DNA from: Clostridia bacterium
GTDB lineage: Bacteria > Bacillota > Clostridia > Oscillospirales > CAG-272
DNA length: 44,015 nt
Assembly: GCA_017938205.1 (NCBI GenBank)
Contig: JAGBCA010000006.1
Location: 1 to 44,015, forward strand
Direction of reading: 5' to 3'
The position numbers and the translations under genes are program-made. Positions 22,767 through 39,074 of this stretch are shown piece after piece (within the stretch, counting starts at the first letter, position 1; each line of letters opens with the position of its first letter). The notes below the pieces were generated by a model that saw nothing but the letters and a program-made list of their open reading frames with translations, searched no databases and was not told the origin of the DNA.

Positions 22767-22795
22767 TTGACAACGAAAAATGTTTGTGCTAAGAT
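22767..22795 (+). promoter_or_regulatory. Sigma-A promoter of the Ile T-box unit
   Basis: TTGACA (22767-22772), 17 bases, TAAGAT (22790-22795). Confidence 0.8.
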
Positions 22796-22801
22796 ATATG
22801 G

Positions 22802-23060
22802 CATAAAGGCGAAGACGAAGACGGTGCCCTCGGCACTGCGGCATAGAGAAACGGCGGTTGGTGTAAGCCGTGCGCAGCGAGATCACTTATCACTTCCGAG
22901 CCGGAGGCTTGAACGAAGTAGGGCTTCACGAGGAGCACAGCGTTAGTGTGCAGGAGTTGTTGGACTCCGCAAAGGGGCGCAAAAAAGCGCAATTTGAGTG
23001 GTACCGCGAGTGATTTTTCACCCGTCTCAAAGGAAGATTTCTTTTGAGTCGGGTTTTTTT
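22802..23060 (+). promoter_or_regulatory. T-box leader, specifier AUC (isoleucine)
   Basis: It has the stem I apical region (AGAGA, then acggcGGTTGGTGTAAGCCgt) and the specifier loop TT-ATC-A before CTTCCGAGC (codon 22889-22891). The T-box sequence TGGTACCGCG is at 22999-23008. A terminator follows at 23021-23060 (cccgtctcaaagg... with ...cttttgagtcggg and seven T's). AUC predicts tRNA-Ile, and the TGGT bulge predicts discriminator A, as in tRNA-Ile. Uncharged tRNA should allow read-through into the ligase at 23102. The codon register was set by aligning this leader with the other two in this window. Confidence 0.88.
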
Positions 23061-23101
23061 ATTTTTTAATTCAAGTTAACAAAAAAACGGAGGTTATTAC
23101 G

Positions 23102-25366
23102 ATGAACGAAACACCCAATACCCAGCTGCTGGAGATCGCGAAAAGAATTGTAGAAATGCGCGAGATCGACGGGATCACGGTGGAAGAGATGGCCGCGAAA
23201 ACGGAGGTTCCCGTTGCGGATTATCTTGCCTACGAGTCCGGTCTGAAGGATTTCCCCTTCTCCTTTATCCATAAATGTGCGCAGGTCTTCGGTATTGGTA
23301 TTACCGACCTCCTGGAGGGCCACAGCGCCAGCCTTTCCTCGTACACGGTAACGAGAAAGGGGCAGGGTGCAACCACCGCAAAGGAAAATGGAATCACCAT
23401 CCAGAGCCTTGCACCCCTCTTCAGAAAGAAGATCGCAGAGCCGTACTGGGTAAAATACGATTTTGACGAGAAGCTCCAGAATGAGCCCATCCATCTTTCC
23501 ACCCACTCCGGCCAGGAGTTTGACCTTGTTATGAGCGGCCGCCTCAAGGTGCAGGTCGGCGATCATATCGAGTATCTTTCCGAGGGCGATAGCATTTATT
23601 ATAACAGCTCCACGCCGCACGGCATGGTAGCGGTGGACGGAAGAGAGTGCCTCTTTGTTGCTGTGGTCCTTCCCGGCGACAATGTGCCCGAGACCTTCAT
23701 TCGCGAAACGCTTTCTCCCTCGCTGAAGAAGAAGCCGCTCGTTTGCTCCAAGTTCATTGAAACCGAGGAGGACGAAAACGGCGGTCTTCTGAAGATCGAT
23801 TTCAAAAATGAGGATACCTTCAACTTCGCCTTCGATATCGTGGACGAGATCGCGAAAAAGAACCCCGAGAAGCTCGCCATGCTCCACGTGGATAAGAACG
23901 GCAAGGAGAGAAAGCTTTCCTTCCGTGATATGAAGCGCGAATCCAACCGCTGCGCAAACTACTTCAAGGCGCTCGGCGTGAAGAAGGGTGACCGCGTGAT
24001 GCTGGTGCTCAAGCGCCATTATCAGTTCTGGTACGCGATCCTCGGTCTTCATAAGCTCGGCGCGATCGCTATTCCCGCAACCAACCTTCTGCAGGCGCAT
24101 GACTTTGAATATCGCTTCCAGTCTGCGGGTGTCAGCACCATCCTCTGCACGGCGGACGGTGACGTAGCGGCGCAGGTCGATCTTGCACAGGCAACCTGCC
24201 CCACCCTTAAGAATAAGATCCTCGTTGGCGGTGCGCGTGAAGGCTGGAATGACTTTGATACCGAGGTCAGCCTGTACAGCACGCATTACAACCGTGCTGC
24301 CGATACCGCTTGCGGTGACGATACGATGCTGATGTTCTTCACTTCGGGCACCACGGGCTATCCCAAGATCGCGGCACACAGCTATAAATATGCACTCGGC
24401 CATTTCATCACCGCCAAGTATTGGCATGGCGTGATGGAGGACGGTCTGCACTTCACGATCTCCGAGACCGGTTGGGGTAAAGCTCTTTGGGGTAAGCTGT
24501 ACGGCCAGTGGCTCTGTGAGGGTGCGGTGTTTACCTATGACTTCGATCGCTTCAATGCAGCGCAGATCCTTCCCATGTTTAAGAAGTACAATATCACCAC
24601 CTTCTGCGCACCGCCCACGATGCTGCGTATGCTGATCAAGGAGGATCTGTCGAAATACGATCTTTCCTCCATCAAGCATATGACCACGGCAGGTGAGGCG
24701 CTGAACCCCGAGGTATACCGTCAATTCGAGAAGATCACGGGTCTCTCCATCATGGAGGGCTTCGGCCAGACCGAGCTGACGCTTACCATCGCCAACCTTA
24801 CGGGCACGACCTGCAAGATCGGCTCTATGGGTAAGGCGGTTCCGCTGTACGACATCTCGCTCATGGATAGCGAGGGCAATCTCGTCCCGGACGGCAAGCC
24901 CGGCGAGATCGTTGTCAAGACCTCGGATAAGGTTCCCTGCGGCCTCTTCAAGGGCTACTACAGAGACGAGGAAAAGACCGCCGAGGTATGGCATGACGGT
25001 TATTATCACACCGGAGACGTAGCATGGCGTGACGAGGATGGATTCTATTGGTATGTCGGCCGTGCGGATGACGTGATCAAGTCCTCGGGCTACCGCATCG
25101 GTCCGTTCGAGATCGAGAGCGTGATCATGGAGCTGCCGTATGTTCTTGAGTGTGGTGTCAGTGCCGCACCGGATGAGGTTCGCGGTCAGGTCGTAAAGGC
25201 CAGCATCGTGCTCGTCAAGGGCAAGGAAGGCACGGAGGAGCTCAAGAAGGAGATCCAGGATTACGTAAAAACACATACTGCGCCCTATAAATATCCGAGA
25301 ATCGTGGAGTTCAAGACCGAGCTTCCGAAGACAATCAGCGGAAAGATCCAGCGCAATAAGCTGTGA
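23102..25366 (+). CDS. XRE-HTH / cupin / acyl-CoA ligase fusion (Ile unit)
   Basis: A 754-residue three-part protein. Residues about 8-70 are an XRE-type helix-turn-helix (ITVEEMAAKTEVPVADYLAYESG) and about 115-200 a cupin barrel (SEGDSIYYNSSTPHGM). From about 235 onward it is an AMP-forming acyl-CoA ligase with the P-loop FFTSGTTGYPK (about 411), SETGWGKALWG, YHTGDVAWRDEDG and the catalytic K748 (TISGKIQR). The ligase part resembles the medium-chain/short branched-chain acyl-CoA synthetase group. It is alone in its unit, between an Ile T-box and a terminator. I infer activation of 2-methylbutyrate for isoleucine; the acid itself is not proven. The HTH-cupin half suggests that it may also bind DNA or sense substrate. 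Confidence 0.88.
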   Translation: MNETPNTQLLEIAKRIVEMREIDGITVEEMAAKTEVPVADYLAYESGLKDFPFSFIHKCAQVFGIGITDLLEGHSASLSSYTVTRKGQGATTAKENGITIQSLAPLFRKKIAEPYWVKYDFDEKLQNEPIHLSTHSGQEFDLVMSGRLKVQVGDHIEYLSEGDSIYYNSSTPHGMVAVDGRECLFVAVVLPGDNVPETFIRETLSPSLKKKPLVCSKFIETEEDENGGLLKIDFKNEDTFNFAFDIVDEIAKKNPEKLAMLHVDKNGKERKLSFRDMKRESNRCANYFKALGVKKGDRVMLVLKRHYQFWYAILGLHKLGAIAIPATNLLQAHDFEYRFQSAGVSTILCTADGDVAAQVDLAQATCPTLKNKILVGGAREGWNDFDTEVSLYSTHYNRAADTACGDDTMLMFFTSGTTGYPKIAAHSYKYALGHFITAKYWHGVMEDGLHFTISETGWGKALWGKLYGQWLCEGAVFTYDFDRFNAAQILPMFKKYNITTFCAPPTMLRMLIKEDLSKYDLSSIKHMTTAGEALNPEVYRQFEKITGLSIMEGFGQTELTLTIANLTGTTCKIGSMGKAVPLYDISLMDSEGNLVPDGKPGEIVVKTSDKVPCGLFKGYYRDEEKTAEVWHDGYYHTGDVAWRDEDGFYWYVGRADDVIKSSGYRIGPFEIESVIMELPYVLECGVSAAPDEVRGQVVKASIVLVKGKEGTEELKKEIQDYVKTHTAPYKYPRIVEFKTELPKTISGKIQRNKL

Positions 25367-25387
25367 TTTTTCTCACTTCACTAAAAG

Positions 25388-25420
25388 AAGGGCGCGCCTA
25401 AGGATCGGCGCGCCCTTTTA
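25388..25420 (+). terminator. Terminator of the Ile unit
   Basis: A perfect 11-base GC-rich stem (aagggcgcgcc/ggcgcgccctt) followed by TTTATAAAAT. Confidence 0.85.
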
Positions 25421-25462
25421 TAAAATACTTTCTCTTTTTGTCGGATTTTTTGCCGAAAGGTC

Positions 25463-25491
25463 TTGACAAAATAACGAAGATATGATACAAT
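25463..25491 (+). promoter_or_regulatory. Sigma-A promoter of the Val T-box unit
   Basis: TTGACA (25463-25468), 17 bases, TACAAT (25486-25491). Confidence 0.8.
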
Positions 25492-25497: not shown

Positions 25498-25772
25498 CGT
25501 AAAGCGTTGACGAAGAGGGCAAAGGCAATGTCGCTTATCAGAGACGTGGCGTTCGGTGCGAGCCACGAAGCGGAGCTGTTTGCTTGTAACTTCCGAGCCG
25601 AGAGGAAGAAAAGCATTTATTGCTGAGTAGAACCTTTCCGTGACTGCCGCGTTAGAGCATATGGGCTGTTAGGCCTTGAGAGGCGTGTAATGCGCAATTT
25701 GAGTGGTACCGCGGGTTCGTTTATTACGGCTCGTCTCAAAGTATTTTATCTTTGGGGCGAGCCTGTTTGTTT
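25498..25772 (+). promoter_or_regulatory. T-box leader, specifier GUA (valine)
   Basis: Stem I apical part is ggcgttcGGTGCGAGCCacg. The specifier loop is TT-GTA-A before CTTCCGAGC (codon 25586-25588), in the same register as the Ile leader. The T-box sequence TGGTACCGCG is at 25704-25713. Terminator stem ggctcgtctcaaag/ctttggggcgagcc runs from 25728 to 25763, with a rather weak T tail. GUA predicts tRNA-Val; TGGT fits A73. It controls the longest unit, 25801-32440. Confidence 0.87.
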
Positions 25773-25800: not shown

Positions 25801-28089
25801 ATGGAACAAATCAAAGCGTTGGACGCAAAGATCCGTGAAATGGCCGGCCGTATTCGTGAGCTGCGTGAGATCTGGGGCTTCAGTATTGCGGAGCTGGCGG
25901 AAAAAACGGGTGTTACCGAGGCGGAATACGCCGCCTGCGAAAGCGGTCTTTCCGACCTGAACTTTGCGTTTATTTACCGCTGCGCTCTTGTGTTTAACGT
26001 TGACGTCACGGATATCATCGAGGGTAAGAGCCCTACGCTGAAATCCTACACGCTGACGAGAAACGGAGAGGGACAGCAGATCCAGCGTGCCCACGGCATG
26101 ACCTATTATGCGCTCGCCTCCGCATTTCAGAACCGTATTGCAGAGCCGCTTCTCGTAACCAACCATTACGTACCCGGCGCAGAGAGCGCGGAAATTGACG
26201 TAACTGCACATGATGGCCAGGAGTGTGATATCATTATTGACGGCCATCTGAAGGTGCAGATCGGAGATCATAAGGAGATCCTCGGTCCCGGTGACAGCAT
26301 TTATTATAACAGCTCCACCCCTCACGGCATGATCGCCGTTGGCGGTAAGGACTGTACCTTCTACGCCATCGTTCTGAACGGCGCGGGCATCGAGCCGCAG
26401 CAGGCAAGCTATACGCCTCCCATTCCTTCGAAGGCCACCCTTCGCTCGGATGACGAGGAGCGCGTTTATAAGAAGTTTATCGAGACCGAGGAGAATGAGA
26501 TGGGAACCCCCACCGCCATTCGCTTCCGCGGTATAGAGAAATTTAACTTTGCCTTTGATATTGTAGATGAGATCGCGTCGAAGAGCCCCGATAAGCTTGC
26601 TCTCTTACATATTGACAACGAGAAGAAGGAGACCCGCATCTCCTTCCGCGAAATGAAGCGGATGTCCTGCCGCGCGGCAAACTACTTTACCTCGCTCGGC
26701 ATCAAAAAGGGCGATCGCGTGATGCTTTGCCTTGGCCGTCATTATCAATTCTGGCCCGCAATGCTTGCGCTTCATAAGATCGGTGCGATCGCGATACCCG
26801 CAATGAATCAGCTGCTCGATCACGATTTTGAATATCGCTTCAAGGCCGCAGGCATCAGCGCCATTCTTTGCACCTCCAAGGGTGATGCGGCAAGACAGGT
26901 CGAGCTTGCGGAGAAAAAATCGCCGATGCTGAAGCACCGCATCATCGTAGACGGTGCGCGCGAGGGCTGGCGAAGCTTTGACGATGAGTGCCGCCTCTTC
27001 AGCACCCATTACGAGCGAACCGAGGAGAGTGCAGGCGGAGACGATACGATGCTGATGTTCTTCACCTCGGGCACTACGGGCTATCCCAAGATCGCGGAGC
27101 ACACCTTCAAGTATGCTCTCGGCCACTTCCACACGGCGAAGTATTGGCACAGTGTTGATCCGAACGGGCTGCATTTCACGATCTCGGATACGGGATGGGC
27201 AAAGGCCCTTTGGGGTAAGTTTTACGGTCAATGGATGTGCGAATGCGCAACTTTTGTTTACGATTTCGACCGTTTCCATGCATCGGACATCCTTCCGATG
27301 TTCAAAAAATACAACATCACCACCTTCTGCGCACCGCCCACAATGCTGCGTATGATGATCAAGGAGGATCTGTCGAAATACGATCTTTCCTCCGTTAAGC
27401 ATATGACCACGGCGGGTGAAGCGCTGAATCCCGAGGTATACCGTCAATTCGAGAAGGCGACGGGCCTTCAGATCCACGAGGGCTTCGGCCAGTCCGAGAG
27501 CACCATGCTGATCGGTAACCTTACGGGTGCACCGCACAAGATCGGCTCTATGGGTAAGCCCGCACCGATCTATGACATTGATGTGGTGGATGCAGACGGA
27601 AAGAGTGTTCCCGTCGGTGAAAGCGGCGAGATCGTCGTTCGCGTGGCAGACGGCATTCCGTGCGGCCTCTTCAAGGGCTATTACGGCGATCCCGAAAAGA
27701 CTGCCGAGGTATGGCACGATGGATATTATCATACAGGCGACGTTGCATGGCGCGATGAGGATGGCTTCTATTGGTATGTTGGCCGTGTGGACGACGTGAT
27801 CAAGTCCTCGGGCTACCGCATCGGTCCGTTTGAGATCGAGAGTGTGATCATGGAGCTGCCGTACGTTCTTGAGTGCGGCGTCAGCGCCGTACCGGATGAG
27901 GTTCGTGGCCAGGTCGTAAAGGCCTCTATCGTTCTCGTAAAGGGAACGGAGGGCACCGATACCTTAAAGAAGGAGATCCAGGATTACGTAAAGACGCACA
28001 CCGCGCCCTATAAGTACCCCCGTATCGTAGAATTTAAGGATTCTCTGCCCAAAACGGCCAGCGGTAAGATCCAAAGAAATAAACTGTAA
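25801..28089 (+). CDS. XRE-HTH / cupin / acyl-CoA ligase fusion (Val unit)
   Basis: A 762-residue paralogue of the gene at 23102 with the same order: XRE helix-turn-helix (about 8-70; FSIAELAEKTGVTEAEYAACESG), cupin (about 115-200; GPGDSIYYNSSTPHGM) and AMP-forming acyl-CoA ligase. The ligase has FFTSGTTGYPK, SDTGWAKALWG and catalytic K756 in TASGKIQR. The C-terminal 250 residues are nearly identical to the paralogue, while the N-terminal third has diverged. It opens the Val T-box unit, followed after 11 bases by the ATPase gene. I infer activation of isobutyrate to isobutyryl-CoA for reductive carboxylation to 2-oxoisovalerate. AMP-forming ligases with fused DNA-binding domains are unusual. 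Confidence 0.88.
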   Translation: MEQIKALDAKIREMAGRIRELREIWGFSIAELAEKTGVTEAEYAACESGLSDLNFAFIYRCALVFNVDVTDIIEGKSPTLKSYTLTRNGEGQQIQRAHGMTYYALASAFQNRIAEPLLVTNHYVPGAESAEIDVTAHDGQECDIIIDGHLKVQIGDHKEILGPGDSIYYNSSTPHGMIAVGGKDCTFYAIVLNGAGIEPQQASYTPPIPSKATLRSDDEERVYKKFIETEENEMGTPTAIRFRGIEKFNFAFDIVDEIASKSPDKLALLHIDNEKKETRISFREMKRMSCRAANYFTSLGIKKGDRVMLCLGRHYQFWPAMLALHKIGAIAIPAMNQLLDHDFEYRFKAAGISAILCTSKGDAARQVELAEKKSPMLKHRIIVDGAREGWRSFDDECRLFSTHYERTEESAGGDDTMLMFFTSGTTGYPKIAEHTFKYALGHFHTAKYWHSVDPNGLHFTISDTGWAKALWGKFYGQWMCECATFVYDFDRFHASDILPMFKKYNITTFCAPPTMLRMMIKEDLSKYDLSSVKHMTTAGEALNPEVYRQFEKATGLQIHEGFGQSESTMLIGNLTGAPHKIGSMGKPAPIYDIDVVDADGKSVPVGESGEIVVRVADGIPCGLFKGYYGDPEKTAEVWHDGYYHTGDVAWRDEDGFYWYVGRVDDVIKSSGYRIGPFEIESVIMELPYVLECGVSAVPDEVRGQVVKASIVLVKGTEGTDTLKKEIQDYVKTHTAPYKYPRIVEFKDSLPKTASGKIQRNKL

Positions 28090-28100: not shown

Positions 28101-28760
28101 ATGAACGGAAAAAGAATCACCATTTTTTCCGGGCATTACGGCAGCGGAAAAACGAATATTGCCTTGACCTATGCGCTCGCTGAGCGAGCGAAGGGGAAGC
28201 GTGTAGCCATTGCGGATATCGATATTGTCAATCCCTATTTCCGCACCAAGGACAGCGAGGCAATGCTTGCCGAGCACGGCATCCGCTTGATCTGCTCGGA
28301 ATATGCAAATACAAACATTGATATCCCGGCTCTGCCGCAGGATATCTACGCAATCGTTGACGATCGCTCCCTCACCTGCATTCTGGATGTTGGCGGAGAC
28401 GAGCGCGGCGCATTGGCACTCGGTCGTATCGCACCTGCCATTCGTGAGGAGGACGATTACGATATGATCTTTGTTGCCAACCGATACCGTCCGTTAACGG
28501 CAACGGTGGAAGGGGCAATGGAGGTGCTGCACGAGATCGAGGCGGCCTGCGGGCTTCGTTTTACCGCGATCGTCAATAATTCCAATCTCGGCGCCGAGAC
28601 AACGGCGGAGGATGTTCTCTCCTCGGTTGCTTTCGGGGAGGCGCTATCGAAGGCCTCAGGGCTTCCTTTGGTCGCCACCGCCGTAACAGAGCCGCTTGCA
28701 AGGGCGCTTTCCGGGCGCATGGCAGGGCTCTATCCCATTCGTTTACAAAAGCATCTATAG
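28101..28760 (+). CDS. ParA/MinD-like P-loop ATPase
   Basis: A 219-residue ATPase with a Walker A FSGHYGSGKTN (residues 9-19), a ParA-type switch VAIADIDIVNPYFRT and a Walker B-like ILDVGGDERGA. It lacks membrane segments. Its exact role is not known. It sits between the Val-unit ligase and the ferredoxin subunit of the 2-oxoacid oxidoreductase, with short spacing on both sides, so a part in assembly, iron-sulfur loading or regulation of that complex is possible. This is inference from context only. Confidence 0.75.
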   Translation: MNGKRITIFSGHYGSGKTNIALTYALAERAKGKRVAIADIDIVNPYFRTKDSEAMLAEHGIRLICSEYANTNIDIPALPQDIYAIVDDRSLTCILDVGGDERGALALGRIAPAIREEDDYDMIFVANRYRPLTATVEGAMEVLHEIEAACGLRFTAIVNNSNLGAETTAEDVLSSVAFGEALSKASGLPLVATAVTEPLARALSGRMAGLYPIRLQKHL

Positions 28761-28776: not shown

Positions 28777-28983
28777 ATGGCAAAGCTCACTTTTAAAACC
28801 GACAAATGCAAGGGCTGCGGCCTTTGCGTAGACGCTTGCCCCAAGGGCGTTCTTGCTCTTGCACAGGACAAGATCAATCAAAAGGGACATCACCCCGTGG
28901 AGGCAGTCAACGAGGCGGCCTGCATCGGCTGTGCCTTCTGCGCAACCATGTGTCCCGATTGTATTATTAAGGTAGAAAGGTAA
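28777..28983 (+). CDS. 4Fe-4S ferredoxin subunit of 2-oxoacid oxidoreductase
   Basis: A 68-residue protein with two classical cluster motifs: C11, C14, C17, C21 (CKGCGLCVDACPKG) and C49, C52, C55, C59 (CIGCAFCATMCPDC). It is the delta (electron-transfer) subunit of the four-part complex encoded next to it. AAAGGAG is 8 bases before the ATG. It passes electrons between external ferredoxin and the thiamine diphosphate centre of the beta subunit. Confidence 0.93.
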   Translation: MAKLTFKTDKCKGCGLCVDACPKGVLALAQDKINQKGHHPVEAVNEAACIGCAFCATMCPDCIIKVER

Positions 28984-28993
28984 GGTACTTATC

Positions 28994-30046
28994 ATGGCAG
29001 AGAAAGTTTTGATGAAGGGCAACGAGGCCATCGCAGAGGCTGCGATCCTGGCCGGCTGCCGTCACTATTTCGGATATCCCATCACCCCTCAGACGGAGGT
29101 TGCCGCATATATGGCAAAGAGAATGCCCAAGATCGGCGGTACCTTCCTGCAGGCTGAGAGCGAGATCGCCGCGATCAACATGGTATACGGCGTATCCGCA
29201 ACGGGTAAGCGCGTGATGACCTCCTCCTCCTCTCCCGGAATTTCCCTGAAGGGCGAGGGTCTTTCCTATCTTGCAGGTGCGGATCTTCCCGCGCTCGTTG
29301 TTAACGTGCAGAGAGGCGGCCCCGGTCTCGGCGGCATTCAGCCCTCTCAGTCGGATTACTTCCAGGCAACCAAGGGCGGCGCTCACGGTGACTTCCATAT
29401 GATCGTTCTTGCTCCCGCCTCCGTGCAGGAGATGGCAGAGCTGACGGTGAAGGGCTTTGATCTTGCCGATAAATACCGCATGACTGCGATGATCCTTGCG
29501 GACGGAACCATGGGTCAGATGATGGAGCCGGTCTCTCTTGATTTCGCAGAGGGCGAGAAGGTAGAGAAGCCCTGGGCAACCAACGGAACGAAGATGGCAC
29601 GTCCCCACAATGTAGTAAACTCGCTGTTCCTTAAGCCCGAGCAGCTGGAAAAAACGAACTTCGAGCGCTTTGAGCGCTACGAGACCATCAAGCAAAACGA
29701 GGTTATGTACGAGGAGTACATGATGGAGGATGCAGAGATCTGTGTCGTTGCCTTCGGTATTGCATCCCGCGTTTCCAAGAATGCGATCAATGAGGCAAGA
29801 GCCAAGGGCATCAAGGTCGGTCTGATCCGCCCCATCACCCTCTGGCCGTTCCCCGAGAAGGCCATTGCCGCTGCGGCAGAGAAGGTGAAGAAGTTCATCT
29901 CCGTGGAGCTTTCCATGGGTCAGATGATCGAGGACGTTCGCCTTGCCGTAAACGGTAAAGCACCCGTAACCCTTTGCAACCGTACCGGCGGTATGATCCC
30001 CGAGCCCGAGCAGGTGCTTGCCGCTATTACGGAAGCTGCGAAATAA
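28994..30046 (+). CDS. vorB: 2-oxoisovalerate:ferredoxin oxidoreductase alpha subunit (VorB type)
   Basis: The 350-residue alpha subunit (pyrimidine-binding domain) of a 2-ketoacid:ferredoxin oxidoreductase. Hallmarks are LMKGNEAIAEAAILAGCRHYFGYPITPQTE, QAESEIAAINMVYG, SSSSPGISLKGEGLSYL and RGGPGLGGIQPSQSDY, which match the VorB group. The enzyme reversibly converts 2-oxoacid plus CoA to acyl-CoA, CO2 and reduced ferredoxin. Under the Val T-box, and with a ligase making acyl-CoA, the carboxylating direction is favoured by context. Specificity for branched-chain oxoacids is inferred from subgroup and neighbours. Confidence 0.92.
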   Translation: MAEKVLMKGNEAIAEAAILAGCRHYFGYPITPQTEVAAYMAKRMPKIGGTFLQAESEIAAINMVYGVSATGKRVMTSSSSPGISLKGEGLSYLAGADLPALVVNVQRGGPGLGGIQPSQSDYFQATKGGAHGDFHMIVLAPASVQEMAELTVKGFDLADKYRMTAMILADGTMGQMMEPVSLDFAEGEKVEKPWATNGTKMARPHNVVNSLFLKPEQLEKTNFERFERYETIKQNEVMYEEYMMEDAEICVVAFGIASRVSKNAINEARAKGIKVGLIRPITLWPFPEKAIAAAAEKVKKFISVELSMGQMIEDVRLAVNGKAPVTLCNRTGGMIPEPEQVLAAITEAAK

Positions 30047-30060
30047 GGAGGTAGAGAAAA

Positions 30061-30807
30061 ATGGCAGTAGTATTTGATAAGCCCCATGCATTGGCCGATG
30101 TGCCGCTGCATTACTGCCCCGGCTGCACGCACGGTATCGTTCACCGTCTGGTTGCCGAGGTAATTGACGAGCTTGGCATCGAGGGCAGAACCATTGGTGT
30201 CGCTCCCGTAGGCTGTTCCGTTATGGCCTATGACTATTTCAACTGTGATATGATCGAGGCCGCACACGGCCGTGCGCCCGCCGTTGCAACCGGTGTAAAG
30301 CGCTCTGATCCCGAGAATATCGTGTTCACCTATCAGGGAGACGGTGACCTTGCCTCCATCGGTATGGCAGAAACCGTGCATTCCGCGGCAAGAAACGAGA
30401 ATATCACGATCATCTTCATCAACAACGCGATCTACGGTATGACCGGCGGTCAGATGGCACCCACCTCCTTGCCCGGTCAGGTAACGCAGACCTCTCCCTA
30501 CGGCAGAGATACAAGTCTATGCGGCTTCCCGATCAAGGTTTGCGAGATGCTCTCTCAGCTGGACGGTCCGGAGTATCTTGAGCGCGTTGCGGTCAACAAC
30601 GTCAAGAACGTCAAGAACGCAAAGAAGGCGATCAAAAAAGCCTTTGAGAACCAGGTAAACGGCAAGGGCTTCTCCCTTGTTGAGGTCATCTCCAGCTGCC
30701 CCACGAACTGGGGTATGACGCCTAAGAAGGCTCTGGAGTGGATCGATGAAAAAATGATTCCTTATTACCCCCTCGGCGTATATAAGGACAGATCGGCAGA
30801 GAAGTGA
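30061..30807 (+). CDS. vorA: 2-oxoacid:ferredoxin oxidoreductase beta subunit (TPP-binding)
   Basis: The 248-residue thiamine-diphosphate-binding subunit. It shows C19-PGC22 (YCPGCTHG), the GDG motif at 93-95 (YQGDGDLASIGMAE) with N121-N122 closing it (INNAIYGMTGGQMAPT), and TSPYGRD. A very good Shine-Dalgarno (AAGGAGG) precedes it. It forms the catalytic core with the alpha subunit at 28994. Confidence 0.93.
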   Translation: MAVVFDKPHALADVPLHYCPGCTHGIVHRLVAEVIDELGIEGRTIGVAPVGCSVMAYDYFNCDMIEAAHGRAPAVATGVKRSDPENIVFTYQGDGDLASIGMAETVHSAARNENITIIFINNAIYGMTGGQMAPTSLPGQVTQTSPYGRDTSLCGFPIKVCEMLSQLDGPEYLERVAVNNVKNVKNAKKAIKKAFENQVNGKGFSLVEVISSCPTNWGMTPKKALEWIDEKMIPYYPLGVYKDRSAEK

Positions 30808-30818
30808 GGTAAGGTAGA

Positions 30819-31361: not shown

Positions 31362-31375
31362 AAAGGAGAAGTGCA

Positions 31376-32440
31376 ATGGAAATCAAGATCATCAGAAATG
31401 AAAACCCCAAGGTAAAGCCCGCCGCTGAAACGCTCGGCTTCGGAAAGTTCTTTACCGATCATATGTTTATCATGGATTATACCTCGGGTGAGGGCTGGCA
31501 CGATGCCAGAATCGTTCCCTTCGGCAAGTTTGAGATCCATCCCGCCTGCACCGCACTGCACTACGGCTCCGAGATCTTCGAGGGCCTGAAGGCATACCGC
31601 AAGGCAGACGGATCGATCCAGCTCTTCCGTCCGATCGAGAATATCCGCAGAATGAATCGCTCCGCAGAGCGCCTTTGCCTGCCCGAGATCCCTGAGGATA
31701 TGGCTCTCGAGATCCTCGAGAAGTTTATCTCCTTTGAGCAGGAGTGGACGCCCTCCGCGCCCGGCACCTCTCTCTATATCCGTCCCTTTATGTTCGGAAA
31801 CGATGAGACCCTCGGCGTGCACGCCGTTCACAACGCAACCTTTATGATCATTCTCTCTCCCGTAGGCTCGTATTACAAGGAGGGCATCAATCCCGTTAAG
31901 ATCATGATCGAGGATACGGACGTTCGTGCCGTTCGCGGCGGAACGGGCGAGGCAAAGTGTGGCGGAAACTACGCTGCATCCAACCGCGCAGGCGAAAAGG
32001 CCGAAAAGCAGGGCTACTCTCAGGTTCTGTGGCTTGACGGTGTTGAGCGCAAGTATATCGAAGAGGTCGGCGCAATGAACGTTATGTTCAAGATCGCAGG
32101 CGAGATCGTAACACCCGCACTCGTTGGCTCGATCCTTCCTGGTATCACGAGAAAGTCCTGCCTTGAGCTGCTCCGCAAGGAGGGGTATAAGGTAAGCGAG
32201 CGTCTCCTCTCCATTGATGAGCTTGAGGCTGCAATGGAAAACGGAACGCTTGAGGAGGCTTGGGGCTGCGGCACTGCCGCCGTTATCTCTCCCATCGGTG
32301 AGCTTGCTTATAAGGGCAAGAAGTACACCGTTTCGGGCGGCAAGATCGGCGAGGTGACCCAGCATCTGTACGACACCATGACCGGTATTCAGTGGGGCAA
32401 GATCGAGGATACCTTCGGTTGGACGCATCCCATTAAGTAA
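31376..32440 (+). CDS. ilvE: Branched-chain amino acid aminotransferase
   Basis: A 354-residue class IV pyridoxal-phosphate enzyme that exchanges amino groups between glutamate and the 2-oxoacids of Ile, Val and Leu. The PLP lysine is K194 in GGTGEAKCGGNYA. It also shows LHYGSEIFEGLKAYR and GTAAVISPIGEL, matching the long BCAT form. It is the last gene of the Val unit, just after the oxidoreductase, so the 2-oxoacid made by the latter can be aminated at once. A terminator follows. Confidence 0.95.
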   Translation: MEIKIIRNENPKVKPAAETLGFGKFFTDHMFIMDYTSGEGWHDARIVPFGKFEIHPACTALHYGSEIFEGLKAYRKADGSIQLFRPIENIRRMNRSAERLCLPEIPEDMALEILEKFISFEQEWTPSAPGTSLYIRPFMFGNDETLGVHAVHNATFMIILSPVGSYYKEGINPVKIMIEDTDVRAVRGGTGEAKCGGNYAASNRAGEKAEKQGYSQVLWLDGVERKYIEEVGAMNVMFKIAGEIVTPALVGSILPGITRKSCLELLRKEGYKVSERLLSIDELEAAMENGTLEEAWGCGTAAVISPIGELAYKGKKYTVSGGKIGEVTQHLYDTMTGIQWGKIEDTFGWTHPIK

Positions 32441-32549: not shown

Positions 32550-32578
32550 TTGACAAAAGCAGAGAATTGTGTTAGTAT
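32550..32578 (+). promoter_or_regulatory. Sigma-A promoter of the Leu T-box unit
   Basis: TTGACA (32550-32555), 17 bases, TAGTAT (32573-32578). Confidence 0.8.
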
Positions 32579-32584: not shown

Positions 32585-32850
32585 ATATTTTCAGAAATGC
32601 AATGAAGGAATTAATTTCTTTCCGAAATGCCTTTCAGAGAGTCGGCGGTTGGTGCGAGCCGATAGGAGAGGGAAGAGAGTCTCGTTCCGGAGCAGGATCT
32701 CGGAATTTTAGTATGAGATCCCGGTGGCCCCGTTACCATGGCATAGGGCTTGATGGAGTCCGATAGAGTGGCTGTCCTTTTTGGATGGCAATCAGGGTGG
32801 TACCGCGATATTTGTCGCCCCTGAAGCAATTTGCTTCAGGGGCTTTTTTT
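32585..32850 (+). promoter_or_regulatory. T-box leader, specifier CUC (leucine)
   Basis: Stem I apical part: AGAGAG, then tcggcGGTTGGTGCGAGCCga. The upper stem pairs TCTTTCC with GGGAAGA. The specifier loop is GAGT-CTC-G before TTCCGGAGC (codon 32681-32683), the same layout as the known glyQS loop. The T-box sequence TGGTACCGCG is at 32798-32807. A strong terminator follows at 32817-32850 (gcccctgaagcaa/ttgcttcaggggc and seven T's). CUC predicts tRNA-Leu; TGGT fits A73. Confidence 0.87.
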
Positions 32851-32882: not shown

Positions 32883-34277
32883 ATGAAAAAAATCATTTGC
32901 TCGGATATGACATTGGTGCAGAAGGCAAAGGGACTTTCTTTTAAGGAGAAGATCGAGATCGCAAGACATCTCGATAACCTTTGCGTAGACGTGATCCATA
33001 TGCCCGCGATCGAAAATGTAAAAACGGATTCCTTGATGATCCGTACGATCTGTGCGTTTATCAAGAACAGTACCGTGTGCGTAGAGACCGGTGCAGCTGC
33101 GGAGTCGGTTACCGTTGCGGCCGCCGCCGTGCAGAAGGCAAGACGTGCGCGCTTGATGGTTCGTCTACCCGTTTCCGCCGTGCAGATGGAATATACCTAT
33201 CATAAGAAGGCGCCGAAGATGCTGGAGCTTGCAAAAACGCTCTTTGCCGCCGCAACCTCCGCTTGTGACGACGTTGAGTTCTTTGCGGAGGATGCAACGC
33301 GTGCCGATTCCGCTTTTCTTGGAGATATGATCAATGCCGCATCGGATGCAGGCATCAAGACCGTCACTCTCTGTGATGACGAGGGCGTGATGCTTCCCGA
33401 TGAGTTTTCCGCATTCCTTGCAAATATTAAGACAACTATCCCCGCGCTTAGCAGCATGAATATCGGTATTCTGTGTCGCGATACGCACGGTATGGCAACG
33501 GCCTCTGCCGTTATGGCCATCAAGGCAGGCGCCTCCGAGATCAAGTGCGCCGTTGGTAACGCCGATATTCCCGATCTTGATACCTTCGGCGGCATCGTGA
33601 ACTATTGCGGCGACCGTCAGGGTATCTATTCGGATATGAACTATAACGAGCTGCATCGCATCGAAAAGCAGATCCGTTGGATCCTTGGTGCAACCGATAC
33701 GGCCGCTCCCGCAGAAACAAAGGCCGAGATCGCAGAGGATACAACCTATAGCAAGGCGGATTCTAAGGAAACCATCGCCGCTGCGATCGCAAAGCTTGGC
33801 TATGACCTTGCAGAGGCGGACGTTGACCGCGTATACGAAGAGTTCTGCCACGTAGCAGAGAAGAAGAGCATCACTGCAAAGGATCTTGATGCCGTTGTGG
33901 CAAACGTTGCTTTGCAGGTTCCTCCCACCTATACGCTGGAGAGCTATGTGATCAATAATGGTAACGTGATCGGTGCATCCGCGCAGATCAAGCTTATGAA
34001 AAACGGCGAGCCTCTTTCCGGCATCGCTATGGGTGACGGTCCGGTAGACGCCTCCTTCCGTACCTTAGAGCAGATCATCGGCCGCCACTTTGAGCTGGAT
34101 GAGTTCCGCATCGAGGCGGTAACCGAGGGGCGCGAGGCGCTTGGTAAGGCGCTTGTCAAGCTGAGAAACAACGGCAAGCTCTATTCGGGCAACGGTCTTT
34201 CGTCCGACGTCATCGGTGCCTCCATCCGCGCATACGTGAACGCCGTCAACAAAATCGTTTATGAGGAGAACGTATAA
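32883..34277 (+). CDS. Degenerate 2-isopropylmalate synthase-like protein with intact regulatory domain
   Basis: A 464-residue protein shaped like LeuA. An N-terminal HMGL-type TIM barrel (about 1-285) and linker are followed by a C-terminal LeuA regulatory domain (about 347-464; YTLESYVINNGNV, MGDGPVDASFRTLEQIIG, LSSDVIGASIRAYVNAVNK). The catalytic motifs are gone: the family DTTLRDGEQ reads D8-MTLVQKAK, so the arginine, acidic and glutamine residues are lost. The metal-binding HxH (HCHDTYG) reads L197-CRDTH-G, and the GxGERAGN segment reads AVGNADIPDLD. Normal synthase activity is therefore unlikely. The regulatory domain, which binds leucine in IPMS, looks preserved. It leads the Leu T-box unit. 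I infer a leucine-sensing or scaffolding pseudoenzyme, or a new activity. Confidence 0.85.
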   Translation: MKKIICSDMTLVQKAKGLSFKEKIEIARHLDNLCVDVIHMPAIENVKTDSLMIRTICAFIKNSTVCVETGAAAESVTVAAAAVQKARRARLMVRLPVSAVQMEYTYHKKAPKMLELAKTLFAAATSACDDVEFFAEDATRADSAFLGDMINAASDAGIKTVTLCDDEGVMLPDEFSAFLANIKTTIPALSSMNIGILCRDTHGMATASAVMAIKAGASEIKCAVGNADIPDLDTFGGIVNYCGDRQGIYSDMNYNELHRIEKQIRWILGATDTAAPAETKAEIAEDTTYSKADSKETIAAAIAKLGYDLAEADVDRVYEEFCHVAEKKSITAKDLDAVVANVALQVPPTYTLESYVINNGNVIGASAQIKLMKNGEPLSGIAMGDGPVDASFRTLEQIIGRHFELDEFRIEAVTEGREALGKALVKLRNNGKLYSGNGLSSDVIGASIRAYVNAVNKIVYEENV

Positions 34278-36796
34278 TGAAACTTTCCTTTTCCACCAAG
34301 GGCTGGCACGGTAAGGACTTTGGCACGTTTCTTGAATTGGCCAAGGATCTTCGCTTTTCCGGTGTCGAGCTTCATAATATCAAAAATCCGCTTTTCACGG
34401 CGAGCGATTCGCCCTTTGCTCCCCATGCAACCGCCGCAACGTTAAGAAAACTTTACGAAATGCAGCTTTCCATCCCTTGTCTTGACTGTCTTTGCGACCC
34501 TGCAGACCCCGAGGGAGAGAATGCATCCAAGGAGGAAGTGAGTGCCGCTATTACACATGCGGGCAATCTTCGCATCCCCTATCTCCGTATCCATGCTGCT
34601 GTGCATAATGATGGGGATCCTGCCCGCGTTGAGGCTTTTCTCGAGTGGGCGTTGCCGCTTGCCGAGCGCGAGGGTGTGACTCTCCTTCTGGAAACCAGCG
34701 GTCTGTTCAGCGATACCGCCGCCCTTCGTCAGACGCTCGATTCCTTTGCAAGCGATTCGCTTGCAGCTCTTTGGGATATGTATTCCACCTTCTTCCTTGG
34801 CGGGGAAGAGCCGGAAACCACGATCGAGCATCTCGGTGCATACGTCAAGCACATCCATATCAAGGATGCGGAGGAGTCTGAGAATGGCTTCGCCTACTGC
34901 CTGATGGGCGAGGGCGCATTGCCCGTAGATCGCCTGATCGGTGCACTTCGCTCCGTAAACTACAACGGCTTCCTGTCTCTTGAGTGGGATCCCAAGTGGT
35001 GCGAGGAGATCGATGATATGGAGATCATCCTTTCGCAGTTTGAAAACTATATGAGCCAGTTTGCGGATACCGCAAGAGCCGATAATTCCTTGTATTATAA
35101 TAAGACGCACACCGGCCGCTATGTCTGGAAGAAGGATCTTCTGATCGACCTCACCTTCCCGAAGGTACTGGACCGCATGGTGGAGGAATTCCCGGATCGT
35201 CTTGCCTTCAAGTACACCACCCTGAACTATACGCGTACCTATTACGAGTTCCGCAAGGACGTAGATGAGTTTGCCGCCGCCCTGATCTCTCTCGGCGTAA
35301 AGCCCGGAGATCACGTTGCCGTGTGGGCGACCAACGTGCCGCAGTGGTACATTTCCTTCTGGGCAACCACGAAGATCGGCGCCGTTCTCGTAACGATGAA
35401 TACGGCTTACAAGATCCACGAGGCCGAGTATCTTCTGAAGCAGTCGGATGCGCACACCGTTATTCTGGTAGACGGCTTCCGTGACTCCAACTATGCCGCA
35501 ACGATCGCAGAACTTTGCCCCGAGCTTGCCACCACCGCACCGGGCGCACCCCTGCACGCAAAGCGCCTGCCCTTCCTTCGCAACGTAATCACCGTGGGCT
35601 TCTCCATGAAGGGGGCTCTCACCTGGGAGCAGGCACTTGACCGTGCCGTGATGGTACCGAAGGAGGAGGTTTACCGCCGCGCCGCCGCCGTGGATAAGGA
35701 CGACGTATGCAATATGCAGTACACCTCCGGTACCACCGGCTTCCCCAAGGGCGTCATGCTTACGCACTATAACGTAGTCAATAACGGTAAATGCATCGGT
35801 GACCGCATGGATCTCTCCACGGCCGACCGCATGATGATCCAGGTTCCCATGTTCCATTGCTTCGGCATGGTGCTTTCCATGACCGCCGCTATGACGCACG
35901 GCGTAACCATTCTTCCTTTGCCGTATTACGCACCGAAGCCCGCCCTTGCTTGTATCAATTCCGAGCGCATCACCTGCTTCCACGGCGTACCCACGATGTT
36001 TATCGCGCTCCTGGAGCACGAGGACTTCACAAAAACCGACTTCTCCTATATGCGTACGGGCATTATGGCAGGCAGCCCCTGCCCGATCTCGGTAATGAAG
36101 GACGTGGTGGAGAAGATGCATATGTCCGAGATCACCATCGTGTACGGACAGACCGAGGCCTCTCCCGGCTGTACCATGAGCTCCACGGACGACCCGATCG
36201 AGGTGCGCGTGGGAACGGTCGGCCGCGCCCTGCCCGAGATCGAGTGTAAGATCGTTGATCCCGAGACAGGCGAGGATTGCCCCGATGAGGTAACGGGCGA
36301 GTTCGTTGCCCGCGGCTATAACATTATGAAGGGCTATTACAAGATGCCGAAGGCCACCGCCGCTGCCATCGATCAGGATGGCTGGCTTCATACAGGCGAC
36401 CTTGCCTGCCGCACCCCCGAGGGTAATTACCGTATCACCGGGCGCCTTAAGGACATGATCATCCGCGGCGGCGAGAATATCTACCCGAAGGAGATCGAGG
36501 AATTTATCTATACCCATCCGAAGGTTAAGGACGTTCAGGTCATCGGCGTGCCCGATCAGCAATACGGTGAGGAGATCATGGCCTGCATCATTCTGAAGGA
36601 TGACGAGGAGATGACAGTCGAGGAAATGAAGTCCTATATCAACGCGCACATGGCGCGCCATAAGGTTCCGAAATACATCGATTTCGTTTCTGAATTTCCG
36701 ATGAACGCCGCAGGAAAAATCCTCAAATATAAGATGCGTGAGAACGCAATTGAAAAGTTAGGTTTACAAAAAGCCGCAAAAGTGGTTACTGCATAA
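34277..36796 (+). CDS. TIM-barrel / acyl-CoA ligase fusion (Leu unit)
   Basis: An 839-residue two-part protein. Residues 1 to about 265 match the sugar phosphate isomerase/epimerase (xylose-isomerase-like) TIM barrel, with metal-site-like residues in LLLETSGLF, ALWDMYSTF, VKHIHIKDAE and LSLEWDPKW. From about 285 on it is an AMP-forming acyl-CoA ligase of the FadD-like type, with P-loop YTSGTTGFPKG (about 481), YGQTEASPG, LHTGDLA and catalytic K814 (AAGKILKYK). It overlaps the upstream stop (TAATG) and is followed by an overlapping amidohydrolase. By analogy with the Ile and Val units I infer isovalerate activation for leucine, but the substrate is unproven. The TIM barrel's role is unknown. 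Confidence 0.88.
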   Translation: MKLSFSTKGWHGKDFGTFLELAKDLRFSGVELHNIKNPLFTASDSPFAPHATAATLRKLYEMQLSIPCLDCLCDPADPEGENASKEEVSAAITHAGNLRIPYLRIHAAVHNDGDPARVEAFLEWALPLAEREGVTLLLETSGLFSDTAALRQTLDSFASDSLAALWDMYSTFFLGGEEPETTIEHLGAYVKHIHIKDAEESENGFAYCLMGEGALPVDRLIGALRSVNYNGFLSLEWDPKWCEEIDDMEIILSQFENYMSQFADTARADNSLYYNKTHTGRYVWKKDLLIDLTFPKVLDRMVEEFPDRLAFKYTTLNYTRTYYEFRKDVDEFAAALISLGVKPGDHVAVWATNVPQWYISFWATTKIGAVLVTMNTAYKIHEAEYLLKQSDAHTVILVDGFRDSNYAATIAELCPELATTAPGAPLHAKRLPFLRNVITVGFSMKGALTWEQALDRAVMVPKEEVYRRAAAVDKDDVCNMQYTSGTTGFPKGVMLTHYNVVNNGKCIGDRMDLSTADRMMIQVPMFHCFGMVLSMTAAMTHGVTILPLPYYAPKPALACINSERITCFHGVPTMFIALLEHEDFTKTDFSYMRTGIMAGSPCPISVMKDVVEKMHMSEITIVYGQTEASPGCTMSSTDDPIEVRVGTVGRALPEIECKIVDPETGEDCPDEVTGEFVARGYNIMKGYYKMPKATAAAIDQDGWLHTGDLACRTPEGNYRITGRLKDMIIRGGENIYPKEIEEFIYTHPKVKDVQVIGVPDQQYGEEIMACIILKDDEEMTVEEMKSYINAHMARHKVPKYIDFVSEFPMNAAGKILKYKMRENAIEKLGLQKAAKVVTA

Positions 36797-37602
36797 TGAT
36801 TAACAACAAATTTTTCGCTATTGATTGTCACTGTCATATTTATCCGGAAAAGATCGCAAGTAAGGCCGTGGCGGGCACCGACCATTTTTACGGAACGGTT
36901 GCCGTCGGCACGGGGCTTGTGGACGATATGCTTGAAAGGGCAGATAAAACGGGCGTGGATAAGGCACTCGTCCAGTCGGTTGCGACAACGCCGCATCAGG
37001 TGGGGAGCATCAATCGATTCATTGCCGCCGAGGTGGCAAGGTATCCGGAGCGTCTGATCGGCTTCGGAACTCTTCATCCTGCATCTGAGGATATTGCGGG
37101 GGATCTTGACGAGCTGCAGGCCCTCGGACTTCGGGGCGTGAAGCTCCATCCCGATATTCAGGATTTCAAAATTGACGATTACCGCGCTCTCAAAATCTAT
37201 GAGCTTTGCGAGGCGCGCGGGCTGCCGATCCTGTTCCATGCAGGCGACAGCCGCTACGATCGTTCTAATCCCAATCGTCTACTGCCCATTCTTCGCATCT
37301 ACAATCGTCTCACGGTGATCGCCGCGCATTTTGGCGGCTATTCAATGTGGGATGAGGCAACCGAGGTGCTCGCGGGGCTGCCGAATCTTTACGTGGATTG
37401 CTCCTCTTCGATGCCTTATCTTTCGGATGAGAAGATCTGCGAATACATTCGTCGCTACGGCGAGGATCGCGTTTTGTTTGGCTCGGATTATCCTATGTGG
37501 ACGGTAGAAAGGGAAGTGCCGCGCTTCCTTTCGCTCGGCCTTTCTGACGAAGCATATTCGAAAATTTTCTCAGAGAACATCATCTCTTTGCTTAGACTTT
37601 AA
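36796..37602 (+). CDS. Amidohydrolase family protein
   Basis: A 268-residue metal-dependent hydrolase of the amidohydrolase-2 group. It shows H12-x-H14 (IDCHCHIYPEK), LKLHPDIQDF-type strand, ILFHAGD, VIAAHFGG and the acidic RVLFGSDYPMW near the C-terminus. Members include hydrolases and non-oxidative decarboxylases. It overlaps the ligase stop by one base, so it belongs to the Leu unit. It might release or trim a carboxylic acid for the ligase, but its substrate is unknown. Confidence 0.87.
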   Translation: MINNKFFAIDCHCHIYPEKIASKAVAGTDHFYGTVAVGTGLVDDMLERADKTGVDKALVQSVATTPHQVGSINRFIAAEVARYPERLIGFGTLHPASEDIAGDLDELQALGLRGVKLHPDIQDFKIDDYRALKIYELCEARGLPILFHAGDSRYDRSNPNRLLPILRIYNRLTVIAAHFGGYSMWDEATEVLAGLPNLYVDCSSSMPYLSDEKICEYIRRYGEDRVLFGSDYPMWTVEREVPRFLSLGLSDEAYSKIFSENIISLLRL

Positions 37603-37640
37603 TATTCTTTTGCTATTTTAGAAAATCTTATTTTTATCTA

Positions 37641-37669
37641 TTGATTTTTTAAAAAAAGTGTGCTATAAT
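37641..37669 (+). promoter_or_regulatory. Sigma-A promoter of gdhA
   Basis: TTGATT (37641-37646), 17 bases, TATAAT (37664-37669). The leader to the ATG at 37725 is about 50 bases with no T-box. Confidence 0.75.
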
Positions 37670-37724
37670 TTATAGCATCTTTCAAATCTGCCGTAAGGCA
37701 ATTCAAAAAAGGAAGGTATATACC

Positions 37725-39074
37725 ATGTTTAAGAATGAGTATCTTAATGCGCTCATGGCTCGTGTTGAGAAGAGAAATCCGAACGAGCCCGAGTTCCATC
37801 AGACCGTCAAGGAGGTTCTCGAGTCTATCGAGCCCGTAATTGAAGCACATCCCGAGTATATCAAGCTTGGTGTTCTTGAAAGAATCGTTGAGCCCGAGAG
37901 AATCATCAAGTTCCGCGTTCCGTGGGTAGATGATAACGGTTGCGTTCAGGTAAACCGCGGCTTCAGAATCCAGTTCAACAGCGCGATCGGTCCGTACAAG
38001 GGCGGTCTCCGCTTCCATCCCTCCGTTAACGAGTCTATCATCAAGTTCCTCGGCTTCGAGCAGACCTTTAAGAACTCCCTGACCTCTCTGCCCATGGGCG
38101 GCGGTAAGGGTGGCGCTGACTTTGATCCTCAGGGCAAGTCCGATATGGAGGTTATGCGCTTCTGCCAGAGCTTCATGACCGAGCTTCAGAAGTACATCGG
38201 CGCGGATACGGACGTTCCCGCAGGCGACATCGGTGTTGGCGCAAGAGAGATCGGTTATCTCTTCGGCCAGTACAAGCGCCTTCGCGATGAGTTCACCGGC
38301 GTTCTGACCGGTAAGGGCATTCCTTACGGCGGCTCTCTCATCCGTCCCGAGGCAACCGGCTTCGGTGCCGTTTATTACACCACCGAGCTTCTCACGCACT
38401 TTGGTGACAGCATCAAGGGCAAGACCTTTGCGATCTCCGGCTTCGGTAACGTTGCTTGGGGTACCGTTCAGAAGGTGACCGAGCTTGGCGGCAAGGTCGT
38501 AACGATCTCCGGTCCCGACGGATACGTTTATGATCCCGACGGTATCTCCACGCCCGAAAAGATCAACTTTATGGTTGAAATGCGTGCATCCTGCAGAAAC
38601 CGCGTTGAGGACTATGCAGATAAGTTCGGCGTTCAGTTCTTCAAGGGTCAGAAGCCTTGGGGCGTAAAGGCAGACATCCTTATGCCTTGCGCAACGCAGA
38701 ACGAGGTTGGCATGAAGGAAGCAGAGCAGATCGTTGCAAACGGCGTGAAGTACTACGTTGAGGTTTCCAATATGCCCACTACCAACGAGGCAGTTGCATA
38801 CCTGAAGGCAAACGGCGTGATCGTTGCTCCCTCCAAGGCGGTTAACGCGGGCGGCGTTGCCGTATCCGGTCTTGAAATGTCTCAGAACTCCATGCGTTAC
38901 TCCTGGAGCGCAGAAGAAGTGGATGCAAAGCTCAAGGGCATCATGAAGAACATCTTCGATGCATCCATCAAGGCTGCAAACGAGTACGGTCTTGGTGACG
39001 ACCTTGTAGCAGGTGCGAATATCGCAGGCTTCATCAAGGTTGCCGAGGCAATGAAGGCGCAGGGCGTTGTTTAA
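37725..39074 (+). CDS. gdhA: Glutamate dehydrogenase (probably NADP-specific)
   Basis: A 449-residue hexameric-type glutamate dehydrogenase that makes glutamate from 2-oxoglutarate and ammonia. It shows QFNSAIGPYKGGLRFHP, the catalytic lysine region PMGGGKGGADFDPQGKSD (K128), GDIGVGAREIGYLFGQY, RPEATGFGAVY and the Rossmann ISGFGNVAWG. The small family S50-I type usual in bacteria fits the length. It has its own promoter and terminator. It provides the amino donor for IlvE, and its position next to the three T-box units suggests a functional link, though it is not under a T-box itself. Confidence 0.96.
   Translation: MFKNEYLNALMARVEKRNPNEPEFHQTVKEVLESIEPVIEAHPEYIKLGVLERIVEPERIIKFRVPWVDDNGCVQVNRGFRIQFNSAIGPYKGGLRFHPSVNESIIKFLGFEQTFKNSLTSLPMGGGKGGADFDPQGKSDMEVMRFCQSFMTELQKYIGADTDVPAGDIGVGAREIGYLFGQYKRLRDEFTGVLTGKGIPYGGSLIRPEATGFGAVYYTTELLTHFGDSIKGKTFAISGFGNVAWGTVQKVTELGGKVVTISGPDGYVYDPDGISTPEKINFMVEMRASCRNRVEDYADKFGVQFFKGQKPWGVKADILMPCATQNEVGMKEAEQIVANGVKYYVEVSNMPTTNEAVAYLKANGVIVAPSKAVNAGGVAVSGLEMSQNSMRYSWSAEEVDAKLKGIMKNIFDASIKAANEYGLGDDLVAGANIAGFIKVAEAMKAQGVV

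Follow-up and report, generated by a model that had tools for sequence, protein, structure and literature searches.

In a window of 44,015 nucleotides, which is one contig (G000:C18) of the 2.36-Mb, 84% complete genome of a Clostridia bacterium, we uncovered a gene cluster that very probably encodes a pathway replacing the normal synthesis of isoleucine, valine and leucine, which starts from environmental branched-chain fatty acids and has its ligase units switched by T-boxes, with a further layer of protein feedback that we infer to lie on top. The usual route to these amino acids seems to have been dropped in this host, and each of them appears to be built from its own branched fatty acid. 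The genes, the T-boxes with their specifiers, the conservation, the lack of the normal genes in the assembly and the loss of the catalytic motifs of a LeuA homolog are observed directly in the sequence. As to the mechanism, LigA would activate 2-methylbutyrate, LigB isobutyrate, and a TIM-barrel-fused ligase (TIM-ligase) isovalerate, in each case to the acyl-CoA by an AMP-forming reaction; a ferredoxin-dependent oxidoreductase (Vor) common to all three acyl-CoAs would carboxylate them to 2-oxoacids, which IlvE would aminate to Ile, Val and Leu. Each ligase unit would be read through solely in the presence of its own tRNA, for Ile, Val or Leu, in the uncharged state. Control at another level may come from proteins, namely HTH-cupin parts added to the Ile and Val ligases and, beside the Leu ligase, a dead LeuA that retains its leucine-binding domain. 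The substrates of the ligases, the direction of the flux and this feedback are predictions.

Table 1. Features of the three T-box-led units and their neighbors (window coordinates)
Feature	Coordinates	Strand	Evidence
Inorganic pyrophosphatase, neighbor	22092..22634	+	present; not conserved
Promoter of unit 1, TTGACA-17-TAAGAT	22767..22795	+	promoter scan
T-box leader 1, specifier AUC (Ile) at 22889-22891	22803..23032	+	RF00230 73.6 bits, E 1.3e-14; terminator stem 23026-23048
LigA: HTH + cupin + AMP-forming acyl-CoA ligase, predicted 2-methylbutyryl-CoA synthetase; sole gene of unit 1	23102..25366	+	Pfam: HTH under cut-off, cupin and ligase over
Promoter of unit 2, TTGACA-17-TACAAT	25463..25491	+	promoter scan
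T-box leader 2, specifier GUA (Val) at 25586-25588	25498..25741	+	RF00230 80.1 bits, E 2.7e-16; terminator stem 25728-25763
LigB: HTH + cupin + AMP-forming acyl-CoA ligase, predicted isobutyryl-CoA synthetase; unit 2	25801..28089	+	Pfam: HTH_3, cupin and ligase over cut-offs
P-loop NTPase-like protein, unit 2, between LigB and ferredoxin	28101..28760	+	CbiA match just under Pfam cut-off; in 73/74 VorA loci
Ferredoxin with two 4Fe-4S sites, delta subunit	28777..28983	+	Fer4 over Pfam cut-off
2-oxoisovalerate:ferredoxin oxidoreductase alpha subunit (VorB; PRK07119, NF005507)	28994..30046	+	NCBIfam 549 bits, cut-off 399
Oxidoreductase beta subunit, TPP-binding	30061..30807	+	TPP_enzyme_C over Pfam cut-off
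Oxidoreductase gamma subunit	30819..31361	+	POR over Pfam cut-off
Branched-chain aminotransferase IlvE (type II)	31376..32440	+	NCBIfam 484 bits, cut-off 307
Promoter of unit 3, TTGACA-17-TAGTAT	32550..32578	+	promoter scan
T-box leader 3, specifier CUC (Leu) at 32681-32683	32593..32825	+	RF00230 140.8 bits; terminator stem 32817-32843
LeuA-derived pseudoenzyme, first gene of unit 3	32883..34277	+	Pfam HMGL and LeuA_dimer; RDG and HxH lost
TIM barrel (AP_endonuc_2) fused to AMP-forming ligase, predicted isovaleryl-CoA synthetase; unit 3	34277..36796	+	Pfam, NCBIfam
Amidohydro_2 protein, unit 3	36796..37602	+	relative somewhere in 25/56 loci with LeuA pseudoenzyme
Glutamate dehydrogenase family protein, neighbor	37725..39074	+	present; rarely conserved

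The three transcription units lie on the forward strand between 22767 and 37602, and each starts with a promoter and a T-box leader with a terminator (Table 1). A preliminary description of this DNA had proposed three adjacent units, each with a promoter, a T-box and an AMP-forming ligase, and the RF00230 matches, promoters and ligase matches bear this out. The promoters, of the form TTGACA-17-TAnnAT, show 10-11 of 12 matches and a TG ahead of the -10 element; since a scan of the window returned nine promoter-like sites against 7.3 expected, only their place and quality argue for them. All three leaders display the T-box sequence (GUGGUACCGCG) and an intrinsic terminator ahead of the gene; leaders 1 and 2 score below the RF00230 gathering score of 93, yet they match the whole model and have the terminator. 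The stem I specifier loop of each leader presents a codon of the amino acid of its pathway: AUC, GUA and CUC were obtained both from the Rfam alignment (model positions 91-93 by our reading) and from a separate MAFFT alignment, in agreement with the Ile, Val and Leu specifiers claimed earlier. T-boxes turn genes on under amino acid shortage, and read-through of the three leaders by uncharged tRNA is predicted here. Elsewhere in the window, a THF riboswitch (15603-15500, reverse strand) precedes a gene for the S component of an ECF transporter (14870-15427) and one for a protein resembling Mur ligases, perhaps FolC-like (13577-14851).

This wiring recurs; the preliminary description had suggested searching genomes for clusters of T-box, acyl-CoA ligase and vor. 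We examined 121 loci, namely the window, 40 regions of relatives and the best 80 of at least 581 confirmed relatives (one locus, L100, repeats L036); these 80 come from metagenome-assembled genomes labelled Clostridia, Oscillospiraceae, Ruminococcaceae and similar, and their sources, where titled, are mostly the rumen, omasum, caecum, colon, rectum or faeces of herbivores. From 25 leaders we constructed a stem I covariance model, which recovered 60 leaders in the window and L031-L070 and 135 in L071-L150, the latter loci having had no part in building the model; dropping two repeats from these 195 leaves 193 distinct leaders. Leaders before a LigA-type ligase specify Ile in 87 of 88 distinct cases (88/89 with repeats), the single Val leader preceding a ligase stretch at the second-ligase position in L114. 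Before a LigB-type ligase, the specifier is Val in 49 of 57 distinct leaders (50/58 with repeats) and Ile in the other eight, which stand before a lone ligase in the stretch (L047, L049, L050, L052, L056, L057) or comprise one Ile T-box heading the Vor operon (L051, L054). All 47 leaders before a LeuA-like or TIM-ligase gene specify Leu, and one remaining Val leader has no assigned gene. In L071-L150 alone, the corresponding counts are Ile in 70/71 for the LigA type, Val in 38/38 for the LigB type and Leu in 25/25 for the Leu unit. In three loci (L041, L044, L046) one Ile T-box stands ahead of both ligases. With the codon keyed to the type of ligase across the 193 distinct leaders, we reject the notion that the specifiers arose by chance.

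LigA and LigB are AMP-forming ligases, as had been recognized, while the HTH and cupin parts ahead of their ligase domains had been overlooked and were found with Pfam. The solved structure nearest to LigA in a PDB search is MacsMa of Methanosarcina acetivorans (3etc, E 1.6e-192), whose preferred acid is reported in PMC10455477 to be 2-methylbutyrate. The best NCBIfam family for both proteins is MbcS (NF047394), at 444 bits for LigA and 440 bits for LigB against a cut-off of 850; although they score outside that family, we read them as probably working like MbcS. According to PMC10026030, MbcS accepts 2-methylbutyrate and isobutyrate but takes isovalerate poorly, which also fits the use of a ligase from another lineage in the Leu unit. 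A phylogenetic tree points the same way: of 167 ligases with a match spanning 700 residues without a stop, 165 are unique, and on the tree of these the Ile/Val label (assigned to 137) changes only twice and follows the ligase clade. The earlier assignment of 2-methylbutyrate and isobutyrate to their respective ligases thus gains support from the closest solved relative, from the best family (under its cut-off) and from the tracking of the label with the clade, and stands as a prediction; for the third ligase, isovalerate is predicted as substrate solely from its Leu specifier and its gene neighborhood.

The columns that separate Ile ligases from Val ligases number 5 of 534 in the ligase part and 36 of 220 ahead of it. 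Within the former, column 459 is G in 93 of 96 Ile ligases and A in 43 of 43 Val ligases and lies four positions before W463, whereas column 462 (L versus M in Ile versus Val ligases) adjoins this residue. Based on the offset of the motif YHTGD, our own mapping makes W463 the likely counterpart of MacsMa Trp259, a residue reported to be critical for binding the substrate; the larger side chain found in Val ligases would fit their smaller acid. Both W463 and G555 are kept in all 167 ligases, as are the cupin residues H135, E139 and H173. Of the 57 columns in the stretch 76-132, 15 are discriminating, whereas the Pfam cupin core has 2 such columns in 58. We read the HTH-cupin parts as putative sensors of the product that would act on the ligases, although the HTH may also bind DNA; a PDB search with this part returned zero matches. 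Strict patterns recovered all motifs in 28 of 48 TIM-ligases and 106 of 167 HTH-ligases, but column by column the key residues are kept in 48/48 of the former and, for most, in 158-167 of 167 of the latter, with some conservative changes, so that the strict patterns are too narrow. Very long antisense open frames cover several genes of the window on both strands (e.g., 23066-25276 on the reverse strand) and are a trap for frame choice.

Unit 2 continues with the shared downstream enzymes. The ligase, oxidoreductase and aminotransferase previously described there are all present, and a P-loop protein between the first two had been missed. The claim of a complete ferredoxin-dependent oxidoreductase and a branched-chain aminotransferase is upheld by Pfam and NCBIfam matches across 28777-32440, where genes for the beta, gamma and delta subunits stand beside that for alpha, yielding a four-subunit 2-oxoacid:ferredoxin oxidoreductase. 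For beta, gamma and delta the NCBIfam models that name a substrate all fall under their cut-offs and hence say nothing firm on the substrate. VorB exceeds its cut-off in 31 of 32 genomes with the ligase, and the other one, G027, has pieces of Vor on a cut contig. Of the 18 VorC loci that lack IlvE, 8 have an ELFV-type amino-acid dehydrogenase (the other 10 have neither in the stretch), as in L041, where it (L041:5272-6303) directly follows VorC and replaces IlvE at the end of the Vor operon; taken together, IlvE or the dehydrogenase is present in 58 of 68 VorC loci.

The flanking glutamate dehydrogenase and pyrophosphatase genes that had been counted with the cluster are indeed present in the window, but we reject them as conserved parts, as they do not recur across the 121 loci: none of the others has the pyrophosphatase and L033 alone among them has the glutamate dehydrogenase, the match at 24% in L146 being to a dehydrogenase of another kind, with many loci too short to exclude either gene. 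Upstream of the pyrophosphatase gene lie genes for a pyruvate formate-lyase-like protein (18519-20873) and a radical SAM protein (21352-22068) that is probably its activase, and at 39248-43843 there is an open frame of 1531 residues with zero Pfam matches even at E 1.

In unit 3, a ligase had been noted correctly, but the LeuA-like first gene, the TIM barrel fused to the ligase and the amidohydrolase had escaped notice. The LeuA-like protein has lost RDG and HxH, which we take to be the catalytic and metal-binding motifs, respectively, of LeuA. Among the 56 loci with a match, 52 yield rows without a stop that match from residue 20 or earlier to residue 455 or later; HxH, placed by an alignment to 3eeg and 3rmj, is missing from all 52, a single His being left in one row, and canonical RDG is found by pattern in 0 of 52, with Arg in 7 rows at a column that was placed by eye. 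The LeuA_dimer domain is present (PF08502, E 1.3e-30) and is better conserved over the 52 rows than the HMGL part (0.74 versus 0.57, with 34 versus 17 columns at 95% or more). All 56 loci that carry this pseudoenzyme have the TIM-ligase beside it, whereas 7 of the 63 loci with a TIM-ligase match have no pseudoenzyme in the stretch. Thus, it shares with 2-isopropylmalate synthase LeuA the HMGL fold and the LeuA_dimer regulatory domain, but differs from it in the loss of both motifs, in its constant place beside the Leu-unit ligase and in the lack of leuB over the cut-off in its carriers among 59 genomes; we read it as a putative leucine sensor acting on the Leu ligase. Searched by itself against the PDB, the leucine-binding part yielded nothing better than a hit at chance level. 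The third ligase belongs to another lineage than LigA and LigB, and in its TIM barrel the presumed metal ligands of the family are partly lost, with E139 kept in 26, D167 in 36, H194 in 37 and E236 in 36 of the 48 rows (at least 800 residues without a stop).

The genome of the window (G000) shows no match to ilvB, ilvC or ilvD, while its best leuB match reaches just 33 bits (cut-off 353) and its only leuC-like match is a 644-residue frame at 301 bits (cut-off 611) that is probably an aconitase; at 84% completeness, single absences could be gaps. We compared 59 genomes including this one: the HTH-ligase is present in 32, ilvC and ilvD in the same 18, both pathways in two (G036, G049), and 11 have neither, which gives a p of 1e-5 in a one-sided Fisher test. 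For the 36 genomes of the genus the counts are 19, 8, 0 and 9 (p 8e-4). Likewise, the LeuA pseudoenzyme occurs in 25 of the 59 and leuB over its cut-off in 17, with no overlap (p 8e-6); within the genus they occur in 20 and 5 (p 0.012). Four pseudoenzyme carriers (G011, G027, G046, G051) have leuB-like matches of 259-279 bits, under the cut-off of 353, which might be true LeuB. In these counts the HTH-ligase was called by hand from a match over both parts at more than about 630 bits, which includes genes with one internal stop (G036, G050, G055; perhaps two neighboring genes in one frame) and one with four stops and a cut start (G040); ligases without the HTH-cupin part (G041, G043, G044, G053, all with ilvD) were counted as absent; and ilvC was counted only at 247 bits or more (18 genomes), as 39 of the 59 pass Pfam's low cut-off of 20.6 via short matches that score 34 bits at most.

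An rpoB tree was drawn for 50 of the 59 genomes, the reading frames being selected for their similarity to a single reference (left out were G003, G018, G025, G029, G032, G033, G035, G058 and G049, the last being one of the two with both pathways). On it, the ligase label is unclustered, changing 15 times against 16.7 for shuffled labels, and the exclusion is therefore not simply one old split. Independent pairs on this tree differ in opposite directions for ligase versus ilv in 5.3 of 7 and never in the same way (median p 0.0625), and for the LeuA pseudoenzyme versus leuB in 2.9 of 7 and again never in the same way (median p 0.25), both by a weak sign test. One genome, G009, combines the Leu unit with ilvC/ilvD and has neither leuB nor VorB over the cut-off; a PFOR gene (L070:6437-9973) overlaps the end of its TIM-ligase gene by 4 bases, scores as an ordinary PFOR and may or may not replace Vor.

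A straightforward objection is that the cluster runs in reverse and ferments Ile, Val and Leu down to branched acids, as IlvE and Vor are reversible and are used for peptide fermentation in some anaerobes. We reject this as extremely unlikely: T-boxes respond to shortage, the cluster occurs where ilvC, ilvD and leuB are mostly absent, and AMP-forming ligases, which cost two ATP equivalents, would be a poor exit for a fermentation. Hence, the direction of synthesis that was initially proposed is favored by the T-box control, the lack of ilvB/C/D matches and of leuB over the cut-off, and the near-exclusion of the two pathways in relatives. Equally, the ligases might mainly supply branched acyl-CoA to membrane lipids in the manner of MbcS of Staphylococcus aureus, the T-boxes merely sensing that the usual precursors are lacking. 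Among NCBIfam families MbcS matches best, albeit under the cut-off, and it feeds FabH according to PMC10026030; but the ligase accompanies VorA in 74 of 74 loci (a biased count, as the loci were mostly fetched via the ligase and L100 repeats L036), the association with IlvE or the dehydrogenase described above points to amino acids, and lipid supply leaves the missing ilv/leu genes unexplained. A role in lipids only is thus very unlikely and is rejected, while dual use of the ligases for lipids and amino acids is possible.

A narrower alternative accepts the Ile and Val units as described and assigns the Leu unit to something else, for example, leucine-controlled salvage of another acid by the TIM-ligase. 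The separate lineage of this ligase, its TIM barrel, the amidohydrolase often found in the locus and the occurrence in G009 of a Leu unit without VorB speak for it; yet the Leu specifier is invariant (47/47), the pseudoenzyme never coexists with leuB over the cut-off in the 59 genomes, and another lineage is just what the poor use of isovalerate by MbcS would lead one to expect. We regard this alternative as unlikely and retain isovalerate-derived leucine synthesis as the predicted function of the unit.

That branched acids are carboxylated in the rumen had been cited as known, and this matches the physiology in PMC7356843 and its reference list, where the conversion of isovalerate to Leu, isobutyrate to Val and 2-methylbutyrate to Ile is old knowledge; methanogens are also reported to use 2-methylbutyrate and isovalerate (PMC10658910). 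The chemistry and habitat are thus alike, but that work concerns physiology only, whereas here we propose a gene set, three ligases and RNA control per amino acid in uncultured relatives. Similarly, T-boxes on the ilv/leu operons of Bacillota are known (PMC12452182) and share the RNA class and the link to branched-chain amino acid synthesis, but they switch the ordinary pyruvate-derived pathway, unlike the separate T-boxes on separate acid ligases seen here. MacsMa (PDB 3etc) and MbcS are the closest ligases by sequence and act on branched short-chain acids; the matched chain and model have no HTH-cupin, their matches starting at LigA residue 237-243, and MbcS supplies lipid synthesis, unlike the role proposed here, with the term "t-box" absent from the main text of PMC10026030. 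The preliminary description knew of no system in which a ligase is switched by the tRNA of its own product, and in the open-access literature (most subscription papers being outside this scope) we too came across no account of such acyl-CoA ligases under T-box control. What appears to be new is hence the placing of each ligase under the T-box of its own product, the branched-acid chemistry and the ilv/leu T-boxes being already known.

Branched-chain fatty acids are long-known rumen growth factors, fed as "isoacids", and precursors of Ile, Val and Leu. The gene set with its amino-acid-specific switches provides testable candidates for the three ligases and a genomic marker of dependence on branched acids; moreover, as one leader reports one amino acid, it offers a design for bioassays, and the dead LeuA illustrates how the feedback sensor of a pathway may outlive its enzyme. 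We consider the chances about even that the cluster represents a widespread, undescribed ilv/leu replacement in rumen and hindgut Clostridia, in which each acid-activating enzyme is doubly controlled by its own product via a T-box and a recruited protein sensor, an HTH-cupin having become the Ile/Val sensor and LeuA a catalytically dead leucine sensor. If so, these bacteria would be dependent on branched acids freed by their neighbors.
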